A stretch of DNA of 64,000 nt from Alphaproteobacteria bacterium. Lineage in GTDB: Bacteria > Pseudomonadota > Alphaproteobacteria > Micropepsales > Micropepsaceae. The stretch is taken from contig CANHNJ010000009.1 in the NCBI GenBank assembly GCA_947462105.1, positions 18,309 to 82,308 of the forward strand, read 5' to 3'. The position numbers were made by a program, and so were the translations under genes. Positions 3,728 through 34,677 of this stretch are shown here, piece by piece. Below the pieces are notes generated by a model that was not told where the DNA came from, ran no database searches, and was given only the letters and a program-made list of their open reading frames with translations. Each line of letters opens with the position of its first letter. Positions within the stretch are counted from its first letter, which is position 1.

Positions 3728-4662
3728 TAGCTGCGCGCCAGCCGCGCCTTCTTCAGCTCGGCGAAGTCGCTGTCGGCATGATAGCTGGAGCGCGTCAGCG
3801 GCGAGGCCGACACCATCGCAAAGCCCTTGGCGCGGGCGATGCTTTCCAGCCCCTTGAACTCGTCCGGCGTCCAGTAGCGGTCCAGCCTGGCATGCTTGCG
3901 CGTCGGCTGCAGATACTGGCCGATGGTGAGAAAATCGACATTGGCGGCGCGCAGGTCGTCCATCACCTGCATGATCTCTTCGCGCGTCTCGCCCAGCCCC
4001 ACCATCAGCCCCGACTTGGTGAAGCCTTCCGGGTACAATTCCTTGGCCCGCTCCAGCAGGCGCAGGCTGGCATAGTAGCGCGCACCCGGACGCACTTTCA
4101 GGTAAAGGCGCGGCACGGTCTCCAGATTGTGGTTGAAGACATCCGGCCTGGCTTCCATCACGATTTCGATGGCGCCTTCCTTGCGCAGGAAGTCCGGAGT
4201 CAACACCTCGATGCTGGTCTTCGGGCTCATCGCGCGGGTGGTGGTGATGACATCGGCGAAGTGGCGCGCGCCGCCATCGGCAAGGTCGTCGCGGTCCACC
4301 GAGGTGATGACGACATGCATCAGCCCCAGCGTCTTGACGGCGCGGGCGACATTGGCGGGCTCGGCGGCATCGAGGGCGGCGGGCAGACCAGTCTTGACGT
4401 TGCAGAAGGCGCAGGCGCGGGTGCAGGTGTCGCCCATGATCATCATGGTGGCGTGACGCTTGGTCCAGCATTCGCCGATATTCGGGCAGGCCGCTTCCTC
4501 GCAGACCGTGTGCAGGTTGTTGGCGCGCACCACATCGCGGGTGGCGGCATATTCGCGGCTGACCGGCGCCTTGACCCGGATCCAGTCCGGCTTGCGCTGG
4601 ATCTCGGAGTCGGGGCGGTGCGCCTTTTCAGGGTGCCTTAATTTGTCGATGACCACGGTCAT
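3727..4662 (-). CDS. lipA: Lipoyl synthase
   Basis: Radical-SAM [26 protein letters not shown] motifs; start chosen at [13 protein letters not shown]. Confidence 0.93.
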
Positions 4663-8233: not shown

Positions 8234-9451
8234 ATGTTGTACGACGCATACCAGGCTCAACAGGACTTGCTTGCCCCCATCCGGGCCGGTGCATCGCTGT
8301 TCAGCACGGCTTTCAGCCAGACCTGGATGGGCCCGGGGACCAATTACCTGTTCCGGAACATGGCGGCGGCGGCGGAAATCGTCTCCCGCGCCAAGATGAT
8401 TCACGAGCGGCCGCCTTATGCCATCGGCCTGACCGGGCCGGATGGCCGTTACCAGCAGGTGGAAGAAGAAGTGGCGCTCAGCCTGCCCTTCGGCGACCTG
8501 ATCCATTTCCGCAAGGCCGTGCCGGTGCGCCAGCCCAAGGTGCTGATCGTGGCGCCGATGGCAGGGCATTTCCCCACCCTGCTGCGCCAGACCGCCCAGA
8601 CCATGCTGGCGGACCATGATGTCTACATCACCGACTGGAAGAGCGGCCGCGATGTGCCGCTGGAGGCGGGCCGCTTCGGCACCGACGAGTATGTCGATTA
8701 CCTGATCCGCTTCCTGGAAGAGATCGGCCCCGGTGCCCACACCGTCGCGGTTTGCCAGCCCTGTGCCGCGCTGCTGGTGGCGGTGTCGGCCATGTCGATG
8801 GACAAGAACAAGGCCATTCCCCGATCCATGACCTTGATGGCGGGCCCGGTGGACACCCGTGTCAATCCCACCAAGGTCAACGAGCTGGCCAATTCCAAGT
8901 CGCTGGACTGGTTCAAGACCAACCTGATCACTGCCGTGCCGGCCCGCTATGCCGGCGCCGGGCGGCATGTCTATCCCGGCTTCATCCAGCTCACCGCCTT
9001 CATGGCGATGAACCTGCCGCGTCACATGCGCGCCCATCTCGACCTGTTCGGGCATATCGTGAAGGGCGAAGACGACAAGGCCGACGCCAACCGCAAATTC
9101 TATGACGAGTATTTCTCGATCGCCGACCTGCCGGCCGAATTCTATCTGGAGACGGTGCAGAAGGTGTTCCAGGAATATCATCTGCCGCGCGGCATCTTCG
9201 AATATCGCGGCCGCATCGTCGATCCCGGCGCGATCAAGAGCACCGCGCTGCTGACCGTGGAAGGCGAACGCGACGATATCTGTTCCCTTGGCCAGACCCT
9301 GGCGGCGCACGATCTGTGCAAGGGCATCAAGCCGTTCCGCAAGAAGCACTACATCCAGGCCGGTGTCGGCCATTACGGCGTCTTCTCGGGCAAGCGCTGG
9401 GCAACACAAATCTATCCGATGGTGAAGAACACCATCCTCGCGTCGGAATAA
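8234..9451 (+). CDS. phaZ: Intracellular polyhydroxyalkanoate depolymerase
   Basis: MLYDAYQAQQDLLAPIRAGA..., VLIVAPMAGHFPTLLRQTAQTML, AVCQPC lipase-box-like motif, HYGVFSGKRW C-terminus. Confidence 0.9.
   Translation: MLYDAYQAQQDLLAPIRAGASLFSTAFSQTWMGPGTNYLFRNMAAAAEIVSRAKMIHERPPYAIGLTGPDGRYQQVEEEVALSLPFGDLIHFRKAVPVRQPKVLIVAPMAGHFPTLLRQTAQTMLADHDVYITDWKSGRDVPLEAGRFGTDEYVDYLIRFLEEIGPGAHTVAVCQPCAALLVAVSAMSMDKNKAIPRSMTLMAGPVDTRVNPTKVNELANSKSLDWFKTNLITAVPARYAGAGRHVYPGFIQLTAFMAMNLPRHMRAHLDLFGHIVKGEDDKADANRKFYDEYFSIADLPAEFYLETVQKVFQEYHLPRGIFEYRGRIVDPGAIKSTALLTVEGERDDICSLGQTLAAHDLCKGIKPFRKKHYIQAGVGHYGVFSGKRWATQIYPMVKNTILASE
9416..9451 (+). repeat. Copy 1 of 36-nt direct repeat (in-frame phaZ 3' end, PMVKNTILASE*)
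   Basis: ccgatggtgaagaacaccatcctcgcGtcggaataa; repeats at 9508..9543 with one mismatch. Confidence 0.97.
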
Positions 9452-9453
9452 CC

Positions 9454-9498
9454 GCGCGCGAGCAAATTGGGTTGGTGGGCGGCAATTTGCGAGCGCGC
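9454..9498. repeat. Imperfect palindrome directly after phaZ stop
   Basis: gcgcgcgagcaaattg / caatttgcgagcgcgc: 14 of 16 arm positions complementary, 13-nt loop. Confidence 0.9.
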
Positions 9499-9507
9499 CA
9501 AAAAAGC

Positions 9508-9543
9508 CCGATGGTGAAGAACACCATCCTCGCATCGGAATAA
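9508..9543 (+). repeat. Copy 2 of 36-nt repeat (displaced phaZ tail, incl. stop)
   Basis: ccgatggtgaagaacaccatcctcgcAtcggaataa; abuts stop codon of convergent nuclease gene. Confidence 0.97.
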
Positions 9544-10329
9544 TTATCTGAAAGCCGTGTTCAGCATGTCCGCCAGCGCGTAACCGGCGCGGGCCAGTTG
9601 CAGCCGCGCGATGCGCGCATAGCCTGCCGCCTGTTGCGCGCTGGGTGTACGCCCCTGCCCCAGTTCCGGATAAATCGTGCTGCGCGCAATCGAAGCCGAC
9701 ATTTCCGCCCACTGCACCGGTGAACCGCCGCCAAGCTGGAATTTCTGCTGGCGCGGCGTGCTGGTATCTATCGTGCGCGCGACGGCGCGCGGATCGCGGC
9801 CCAGGGCCACCACCATCTCGTTATCCCAGAAATGGTGCAGCGTGATGCGCTGGCCGCGCCAGCGCAGTTGCACCCGGTTGCCGCCCCGGTCGCGATTATC
9901 AGCGGCATGCAGCGGCTGGTGCACATCGCCGACAAGATGGATCAGGAATTTCAGCGCCTCGGCCCTGGCGGCGCGGCTGGCATTGCTGTTCAGGATGGCC
10001 TGCTGCCGCGCGATCTGCGCCACGACGCAATCACCGCCACGGCAGTCGCGCCCCGGCTGGTAGCGCATGTCGCTGGCGATCTCGATATTGACGTAATGCC
10101 AGGGGGCGGTCTGGGGCCGCGCCTCGCGGATCTCATCGGCCCAGTTGGCGTGGATCGCCATCATCGCTTCGGCTTCGCCGCCCAGCAGGCCTGCAACCGC
10201 CGCGCGCGCCTTGGGCGTCAGGTTCATCGCCGCAATCTGCGCGACGACCTCGTGGCCGCGCGGTCCCCATGCCAGCGCGGGAACCGGCACCGCCGACAGC
10301 ATTACCAGCAGGAATAGCAGTCTTCGCAT
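9544..10329 (-). CDS. S1/P1 nuclease family protein
   Basis: Signal peptide then WGPRGHEVVAQIA...HFLVGDVHQPLH-like LIHLVGDVHQPLHAADNRDRGGN...HHFWD. Confidence 0.88.
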   Translation of the reverse strand: MRRLLFLLVMLSAVPVPALAWGPRGHEVVAQIAAMNLTPKARAAVAGLLGGEAEAMMAIHANWADEIREARPQTAPWHYVNIEIASDMRYQPGRDCRGGDCVVAQIARQQAILNSNASRAARAEALKFLIHLVGDVHQPLHAADNRDRGGNRVQLRWRGQRITLHHFWDNEMVVALGRDPRAVARTIDTSTPRQQKFQLGGGSPVQWAEMSASIARSTIYPELGQGRTPSAQQAAGYARIARLQLARAGYALADMLNTAFR

Positions 10330-10357
10330 TGCCAAGGCATAGCATGCGGCCGCCAGA

Positions 10358-12094
10358 ATGCGGATTCTCTTTGCAGAACAGACGTTTGGGTTGACGCTGG
10401 CGGCCCGCACAGGCTTAATGGATTCGGTCGCTTGCCGGGGATGGTGCCGCGATCACAGGGCTGGGGACGATGGGCGGGGGCCTGCCGATCCCAATATTGC
10501 AGACGACGGAGCCGACGTGAATCCACGCGAGTTGGTGCGCGCCTACACCGCATCCCCCTGGCCTGCGCGCCTGGCGTCGGCCCGCGCCGCCATGACGACC
10601 ACCGATGGCCGCTGGGCCCTTGTCTCCACCGGCATCACCACGGTCGTTGCGGGCATCGTCGCCTCGCTGGCGGTGGGTACGCTGCCGATGAGCAATCCCG
10701 CCGTTTCGACCACGCACATTCCCCTCACCTATGAGCTGTTCCTGCGCCTGCTCAAGACCAGCAGCAGCGTTCCCCATCTCACCGCGCCAGACCAGGCCGA
10801 CCGGGCCAATGGCGATCCTGGCGTGGAAACCCGCACCGTCACGCTGGATGCCGGTGACACGCTGGCAGGTGCGCTGGAGGATGTCGGCATCTCGATGTCG
10901 GACGCCAACGCCGCCGTCGCCGCCCTGGGTTCCGACTTCAATCCGCGCCAGCTCAAGGCGGGCATGGCCATCGACATCACCTATGCGGTGGCGACCATCG
11001 ATGCCACCGGCGGCGCCACCGACAACAGGCCGCGCAGCACCACCATCCTGGTCAATGGCAAGCCGATCGTGGTGCCGCTGACGGAAGACAATGAAGCCGA
11101 TGCGACGCCCGGCACCTCCGAGCCGATCTCGCGTTTGCTGTCGCTGCATTATTCGCCCACCATCGAACAGGAAATCACCATCACCCGCACCACGGCGGGC
11201 GGCTTCTCGGCCGATGTCGTCAAGAAGGAACTCAAGGCGCACGCGCATCGCGCCGGCGGCACGGTGGATTCCAGCCTTTATCTCGCCGCCATGCAGGCGG
11301 GCATCCCGGCAGAAGTCGTGATCGACATGATCCGCATGTTCTCCTACCGGGTCGATTTCCAGCGCGACGTCCATGAGGGCGACAGCTTCGAGGTCTATTA
11401 CGACTATTACTACACGCCAGAAGGCCAGCCCGCGAAATATGGTGCGATCTCCTTTGCGAAGATGCGCCTGGGCGGCAAGGACATCGCGCTCTACCGCTAC
11501 CAGCCCGATGGCAACGAGGCGGTCGAGTATTTCGACGCCAAGGGCGAAAGCGCCAAGGGCATGCTGATGAAGACGCCGGTCGATGGCGCCCGCATCTCGT
11601 CCGGCTTCGGTTCGCGGTTCCATCCGGTGCTGGGCTACACCCGCGTGCACAAGGGCGTCGATTTCGCGGTGCCGATTGGCACGCCCGTGATGGCGGCGGG
11701 CGCGGGCACGGTGAAGTTCATGGGCCGCGCCAGCGGCTATGGCAATTTCGTCCAGATCATCCACGGCAACGGCTATTCCACCGCCTATGGTCATCTTTCC
11801 CGCTTTGCCGCCGGCATGCGCAGCGGCGCACGGGTGCGACAGGGCCAGATCTTCGCCTTTAGCGGCAACACCGGCATCACCACCGGCCCGCATTTGCATT
11901 ACGAGATCCGCATGAACAACGGCCAGGTCAATCCGCTGACGGTGAAGATGGCGCAGGGCCGCACGCTGGCGGGCAAGGAACGCCTCGCCTTCCTGGGAAC
12001 GCGGATGAAGATCGACGAGCAGATGGCGGCGATGCCACTGGAGGCGCGGGTGACCGATGTCTCGACGGACCTCCGCCAGGCAAGGTCGCGTTAG
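10358..12094 (+). CDS. M23 family metallopeptidase (LysM/OapA-like N-region); GTG at 10517 is an alternative start
   Basis: SGFGSRFHPVLGYTRVHKGVDFAVPIGTPVMAAGAGTV...HLHYEIR. Confidence 0.88.
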   Translation: MRILFAEQTFGLTLAARTGLMDSVACRGWCRDHRAGDDGRGPADPNIADDGADVNPRELVRAYTASPWPARLASARAAMTTTDGRWALVSTGITTVVAGIVASLAVGTLPMSNPAVSTTHIPLTYELFLRLLKTSSSVPHLTAPDQADRANGDPGVETRTVTLDAGDTLAGALEDVGISMSDANAAVAALGSDFNPRQLKAGMAIDITYAVATIDATGGATDNRPRSTTILVNGKPIVVPLTEDNEADATPGTSEPISRLLSLHYSPTIEQEITITRTTAGGFSADVVKKELKAHAHRAGGTVDSSLYLAAMQAGIPAEVVIDMIRMFSYRVDFQRDVHEGDSFEVYYDYYYTPEGQPAKYGAISFAKMRLGGKDIALYRYQPDGNEAVEYFDAKGESAKGMLMKTPVDGARISSGFGSRFHPVLGYTRVHKGVDFAVPIGTPVMAAGAGTVKFMGRASGYGNFVQIIHGNGYSTAYGHLSRFAAGMRSGARVRQGQIFAFSGNTGITTGPHLHYEIRMNNGQVNPLTVKMAQGRTLAGKERLAFLGTRMKIDEQMAAMPLEARVTDVSTDLRQARSR

Positions 12095-24863: not shown

Positions 24864-24864
24864 T

Positions 24865-24910
24865 GGTCACGCGGGCCACGGCTTCGTTGCACTCGCCTGC
24901 CCGTCGCTCC
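24865..24910. repeat. 46-nt palindromic element (family GGTC-R-CGCGG...CCGTCGCTCC), copy after ubiG
   Basis: ggtcacgcgggccacggcttcgttgcactcgcctgcccgtcgctcc; 39/46 identical by hand to 34583..34628. Confidence 0.9.
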
Positions 24911-25939: not shown

Positions 25940-26075
25940 GGGCAATCCTCCTGGTTGTTTTGCCGCCAGTGTCATGGGGCAGCCAGGAATTGTCCAGACG
26001 CCTTTTTATGGTCGCGCCGCCACCAGAAATGCCGCGTTCACAGAGTAACTTGTGCCGCCCTCGGCGTTACAGGAC

Positions 26076-31703: not shown

Positions 31704-34559
<2,856 letters not shown>

Positions 34560-34628: not shown

Positions 34629-34670
34629 TGCGGCTCCGGCCGGAAGTACAAGCACTGCCACGGGGCGCTG
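34629..34670 (+). repeat. Copy 2 of secA C-terminal tail (displaced, host-like codons)
   Basis: tgcggctccggcCGGAAGtacaagcactgcCACGGGgcgCTG = [14 protein letters not shown]; 36/42 identical to copy 1, all differences synonymous. Confidence 0.97.
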
Positions 34671-34677
34671 TTAAGTC

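Follow-up and report, generated by a model that had tools for sequence, protein, structure and literature searches.

The window analysed here is a stretch of 64,000 nucleotides from contig CANHNJ010000009.1, part of a fragmented assembly (2.17 Mb, 41 contigs) probably of metagenome origin. It carries phaZ, the gene of a PHB depolymerase whose closest named relatives belong to uncultured Alphaproteobacteria, and, converging on it, an ORF for an S1/P1 nuclease. The start of phaZ was set at the ATG at 8237; a longer ORF from 8090 exists. The features of the locus are as follows:

8237..9451, plus strand: phaZ (PHB depolymerase; PF06850, PHB depolymerase C-terminus, E 8.9e-91), its 3′ end being the insertion target
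9416..9451, plus strand: target duplication copy 1 (36 nt), the functional phaZ end today, including the stop codon
9452..9507, plus strand: inserted element (56 nt), missing in relatives, with family members at other loci
9454..9469, plus strand: hairpin 5′ arm, pairing at 14 of 16 positions with the 3′ arm
9470..9482, plus strand: conserved loop GGTTGGTGGGCGG (13 nt), near-invariant in 16 copies (loop tally from 50 copies)
9483..9498, plus strand: hairpin 3′ arm
9499..9507, plus strand: A-rich 3′ tail CAAAAAAGC, not in the empty site; the family is A-rich on this same side only
9508..9543, plus strand: target duplication copy 2, the displaced ancestral phaZ end
9544..10410, minus strand: convergent S1/P1 nuclease ORF (PF02265), its stop abutting copy 2

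The initial annotation of this DNA had reported that the final 12 phaZ codons, stop included, recur with one synonymous change, and the two copies are indeed identical at 35 of 36 positions with a start-to-start spacing of 92 nt, both encoding PMVKNTILASE* and differing by a single synonymous exchange. Likewise, copy 2 ends against the nuclease stop as described, the nuclease ORF terminating at 9544 on the minus strand. The insert begins with CC, followed by the first 16-nt arm, the loop of 13 nt, the second arm and the A-rich tail. The predicted palindrome with 16-nt arms was recovered with 14 of 16 positions pairing and a mismatch of GA opposite GA in the middle of the arms, but it starts 2 nt behind the stop codon and not directly after it. 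Single-strand folding of 81 nt around the hairpin as RNA yielded −32.6 kcal/mol and folding of the insert as DNA −15.6 kcal/mol, with modest z-scores of about −1.9; as the genome is GC-rich, the folding energy alone is weak evidence and the comparative evidence decides. In sampled stretches of the genome totalling 882 kb, the phaZ pair is the top-scoring short-range direct repeat, in-gene protein repeats aside, and its score of about 33 compares with a null maximum of 15.5 in tail-versus-downstream comparisons. The phaZ repeat is not due to chance.

Both the duplication and the hairpin are absent at the readable phaZ ends of related genomes (L003–L022), and at none of these ends was a hairpin found behind phaZ. 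In the sister genome G007, with 77% protein identity, phaZ leads directly into the end of the antisense nuclease gene, in the same way as copy 2 in the window. Since the sites of the relatives are empty and their phaZ end adjoins the nuclease gene, copy 2 corresponds to the old junction, and 92 bp (56 + 36) have been gained. The earlier suggestion that the second copy represents the original end of phaZ is thus supported, the phaZ loci of related species being empty sites. The AT-rich codons in front of copy 1, which had been taken as a sign of insertion, lost this meaning: the codons ACACAAATCTATCC occur in L004 and L007, which lack the insertion, and ACA CAA ATC TAT is found in relatives too, such that these codons are ordinary and uninformative.

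Outside phaZ, the insert matched sequences of three relatives, namely between lutB and lutC in both G027 and G021, and beside tRNA-Glu in G028. These hairpins have a nearly constant, G-rich loop, GGGTTGGNGGGCGGC, a stem which is variable yet complementary, and an A-rich 3′ tail; the phaZ hairpin is one copy of this dispersed repeat family. When 16 copies are aligned, the loop hardly varies, 91.6% of the cells of the named stem pair and 14 of the 16 stem pairs show changes on both sides. The stem covaries, with a score of 0.660 compared to 0.157 after shuffling and at most 0.127 with slid partners. Across the family the stems are 12–20 bp and the loops 13–14 nt long. A covariance model combined with the loop pattern detected at least 10 copies in G027, at least 8 each in G028 and G021 and at least 5 in G002, and the loop pattern matched at least 10 times in G061; with 150 candidates scored per genome, these numbers are lower bounds. 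The family is present in several species of the genus, and copies beside tRNA genes were encountered in G039, G246 and G404, genomes of three other alphaproteobacterial families. The source genome contains one copy only, that at phaZ, by the model search and in the sampled 882 kb. In G028, three hairpins with differing arms stand in a row beside tRNA-Glu, and behind each of them the end of tRNA-Glu is repeated. The constant loop and variable stem lay outside the view of the initial annotation, whose insertion reading is partly supported. No description of the loop string or of similar repeats was found in the literature searched, the coverage of which was incomplete, and the family is apparently undescribed. 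A known structured RNA family was considered and discarded, as curated Rfam models recognized only tRNA and 6S in ten loci and nothing real at phaZ. G-T pairs account for 8 of 769 pairs in 50 hairpin stems, as selected by a stem finder favouring Watson-Crick pairs, which gives a hint that the structured molecule might be DNA rather than RNA.

The hairpins are polar. In bacterial copies the flank past the 3′ arm consists of 50–72% A at positions 2–8, whereas the opposite flank is not A-rich; of 37 bacterial copies, 28 have AAA within 13 nt past the 3′ arm and none has TTT there. On the left side AAA, equivalent to a T-run on the other strand, is found in 6 of 37, and an intrinsic terminator was rejected on these counts. 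A tRNA 3′ end is located 7–11 nt away in 10 of the 37 bacterial copies, for which rough arithmetic gives a chance expectation far below 1, and in all ten the orientation is the same, with the tRNA on the A-run side and its end facing the hairpin. Other copies lie directly before start codons (lutC, fabF, smpB and an SDR gene; lutB/lutC, fabF, smpB and SDR are names read from the sequence by eye) or after stop codons, and both orientations relative to the neighbouring genes occur. In two other families (L063 ca. 1400–1540; L289 minus strand, ca. 1400–1540), we also observed a conserved segment preceding the hairpin which resembles a tRNA 3′ end (GAGGT...ACCTCG..CCGGAACC).

Filled sites with empty counterparts are not restricted to phaZ. 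The lutB/lutC junction is empty in G004 and G010, where the genes overlap (CGCAAATGAGCGCG in G004), and in G027 and G021 the hairpin is positioned between two copies of the ATGA region, implying a duplication of about 8–14 nt; at this shared site paired C-to-T and G-to-A changes have occurred in the arms. At lptG (LptF/LptG family), empty in G001, G010 and G016, the source genome exhibits a 24-nt tail, a 47-nt hairpin-bearing insert and the tail again, G007 (L508) two successive tail-insert units, and G015 a separate insertion with a similar hairpin and about 15 duplicated nt. Finally, the START of a luciferase-like gene is duplicated over 27 nt in the source genome (L358, 13283–13410) around a 65-nt insert of hairpin and A-run which provides a new start codon (MSAAPK...), the site being empty in the relative L498. 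The flanking duplications at these three loci thus span about 8–27 nt. The conserved loop is missing from the inserts at lptG and the luciferase-like gene; these share the anatomy of the family, but perhaps not its ancestry. A flanking duplication as a family-wide rule was not found, 47 of 53 copies having no recognisable one, and target duplication is for this reason not demonstrated as a general property.

A test of 407 gene ends (482 kb) returned secA (28.5), lptG (19.0) and an esterase gene (17.5) above the null maximum of 15.5; phaZ was left out because a longer antisense ORF had displaced it. In the 882 kb, copy 1 ends at most 4 nt from the stop codon at phaZ, secA and lptG, compared to about one case expected. 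The recurrence anticipated by the initial annotation is thus real but rare: within the 882 kb it comprises secA, lptG, the end of the esterase gene and the START of one gene, and G027 and the control G047, each covered over 200 kb, yielded no such gene-end duplications. Tail duplication is a recurrent but rare process. An end motif (T-run, TGG, CGCG) was tried as a link between the phaZ, secA and lptG inserts and dropped for want of a clear excess, occurring 109 times versus 99 reversed in its loose form and 16 versus 6 in a stricter one; it stays a hint of a possible superfamily.

The secA gene had been presented as a parallel to phaZ. The outcome indeed corresponds, with a new tail plus stop at 34503–34559, an old tail at about 34629–34674 and a palindromic repeat between, but this repeat belongs to a different family from the phaZ hairpin; its second copy (CGCGGGCCACGGC...GCCTGCCCGTCGCTCC) is found at 24864–24910, immediately behind the stop codon of a methyltransferase gene. 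The secA tails differ in four codons, all synonymous, over 41 aligned nt, and it is copy 2 that is similar to the secA tails of related genomes (CHGALL/V). The arrangement could equally have arisen by import of a diverged tail from a relative or by insertion, and we would not merge secA with phaZ. In the secA region of G001 (L355), we noted that the gene end is followed by a displaced 16-nt repeat of its tail; the insert there is very short, and a hairpin is absent.

Of the loop matches in viral contigs, more than a dozen fold into the same hairpin type, which is the commonest long perfect hairpin in 1.18 Mb of viral contigs, themselves chosen by the loop pattern. Contig L227 encodes head-tail adaptor, major head and tail proteins, its head protein sharing 58% identity with the counterpart in Pelagibacter phage Lederberg EXVC029P and 56% with the one in HTVC010P. 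Hairpins flank the head gene on both sides and another follows the next gene; in the related contigs L241 and L276 hairpins occupy corresponding places, with changed arms or copies in tandem. Judged from loop and fold, the family is shared with tailed phages, where it resides between genes. A search for close DNA matches in deposited phages gave chance-level matches only. Head-to-head hairpin pairs are present at L110 ca. 4450–4540 and on the minus strand of L276 at ca. 1500; one of the two sequences is a phage contig, the other probably a prophage.

Among described systems, the YPAL (RU-2) elements of Yersinia are the nearest precedent, their target duplications varying from 3 to 26 bp (PMC2229807, citing De Gregorio et al. 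2006). YPAL elements and the phaZ family share a small size, intergenic location, internal inverted repeats, empty and filled sites, variable duplications (here 36 nt at phaZ and about 8–14 nt at lutB/lutC) and the lack of TA ends. Compared by description, YPAL measures about 168 bp with conserved sequence, whereas the phaZ family measures about 56 bp with a variable stem and a constant loop, and the A-rich tail and duplications of up to 36 nt set it apart from the YPAL elements (PMC2229807). GTAG-REP/RAYT systems are similar in that short palindromes sit at the ends of genes, in both orientations and at times as pairs, but there the loop varies and the stem is conserved, the reverse of the phaZ family, which is without the GTAG tag (PMC3733652, PMC2817692). 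CGTC-REPs, which have an 8–9 bp stem, a 4–5 nt loop and a CGTC tag, are also alphaproteobacterial palindromic repeats without a known transposase (PMC3733652); with stems of 12–20 bp, a conserved loop of 13–14 nt and no tag, the phaZ family was not assigned to them. A GTAG-type tetranucleotide beside the palindrome was sought in the flanks of 50 copies and found in none. REPs are moved by Y1 transposases; their domain (PF01797, Y1/RAYT) is present in G002, G007 and G015 and absent from G000, G021, G027, G028 and G061, and since copy-rich genomes lack it the RAYT/REP route is unsupported. With MITEs (ERIC, Correia, RUP and others) the family has in common small size, non-autonomy and target duplications, in contrast to MITEs it has no fixed terminal repeats and its duplication length varies. 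Eukaryotic SINE-type retroposons carry an A-rich tail at the 3′ end and duplicate their targets over varying lengths; this likeness to the phaZ element, which comprises just about 56 nt, is suggestive only. Integrase and casposon insertions also use tRNA or gene 3′ ends and duplicate the end (PMC4046053), but 56 nt cannot hold an integrase or cas1. A tyrosine-recombinase core site would be the reverse of a constant asymmetric loop with variable arms.

We favour, with a probability of roughly 0.7, a scenario in which a non-autonomous mobile palindrome duplicated a target of variable length at phaZ while the gene stayed whole. The palindrome would have entered phaZ 36 nt before the end of the gene and duplicated this terminal segment, adding 92 bp; copy 1 would have rebuilt the frame and the stop codon with the protein sequence kept, and copy 2 would be the stranded old end. 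The element might be moved in trans by a putative enzyme recognizing the loop and the hairpin fold, and joining at a staggered cut with subsequent fill-in may produce target duplications of variable length. Hairpins would be seen at gene edges because a duplication there rebuilds the gene and leaves it whole, so that the element survives. A bolder version, which we hold to be decidedly improbable, regards the family as a bacterial and phage counterpart of SINEs, moved in trans by a loop-reading enzyme, possibly via reverse transcription or single-stranded hairpin DNA, with stems free to diverge and with phages as carriers. On the unlikely side, although deserving serious attention, is a view that can be true together with mobility, namely that the hairpins are functional signals of transcript end, processing or stability, selected at gene edges and mostly inherited, the phaZ copy having come with one. 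The fixed orientation beside tRNA 3′ ends (10/10), the hairpins flanking the L227 major head gene, their corresponding places in related phage contigs despite changed arms and the paired arm changes at the shared lutB/lutC site are consistent with such signals. An ordinary intrinsic terminator is at variance with the missing T-run after the inspected hairpins (right-side TTT 0/37), and the occurrence of both orientations relative to neighbouring genes, the lack of an Rfam match and the scarcity of G-T pairs, which even with a finder favouring Watson-Crick pairs suits DNA better than RNA, likewise argue against a functional signal.

Recombination, by which a relative's gene end with its hairpin-bearing 3′ flank was joined upstream of the recipient's tail and the old tail left behind, would account for a similarity that reaches precisely as far as the stop codon. 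The codon differences, synonymous in 4/4 cases at secA, 2/2 at lptG, 1/1 at phaZ and 0/1 at the esterase gene, are as between diverged orthologues, and the displaced secA tail of G001 without a hairpin also fits. However, the phaZ copies are one base apart, no donor is visible among relatives, none of which has a hairpin behind phaZ, and neither the tandem hairpins with repeated tRNA ends nor the duplicated gene START are accounted for; we therefore judge recombination to be distinctly unlikely. Under replication slippage or template switching, the duplication would be a single local event that left filler between the copies, and the hairpin would have formed or been picked up accidentally. 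Mutations that produce short, filler-containing duplications are known, and the esterase gene end, where a 27-nt repeat interrupted by 6 nt of filler falls within a local palindrome, may be of this type. At phaZ, the filler comes from a dispersed family whose loop is conserved, something that slippage does not provide, and the recurrence of the arrangement at other genes argues against a one-off slippage; because of the hairpin family slippage appears unlikely there, and we accord it hardly any weight.

Small palindromic repeats are common in bacteria, and the mover of many of them is not known. The free stem combined with a fixed loop makes the presumably recognised part visible, and the family offers sites resolved as empty or filled, an A-tail on one side only, duplications of varying length and sharing with phages. 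A gene can gain an element inside its last codons undamaged, with a fossil tail left behind. As a separate observation, a further intergenic-looking repeat, consisting of a T-run followed by ATGGTCGC(G/A)CCGCC..., recurs at several places of the source genome (window position 26003; L372 1406; L458 14533; L467 minus strand 501).
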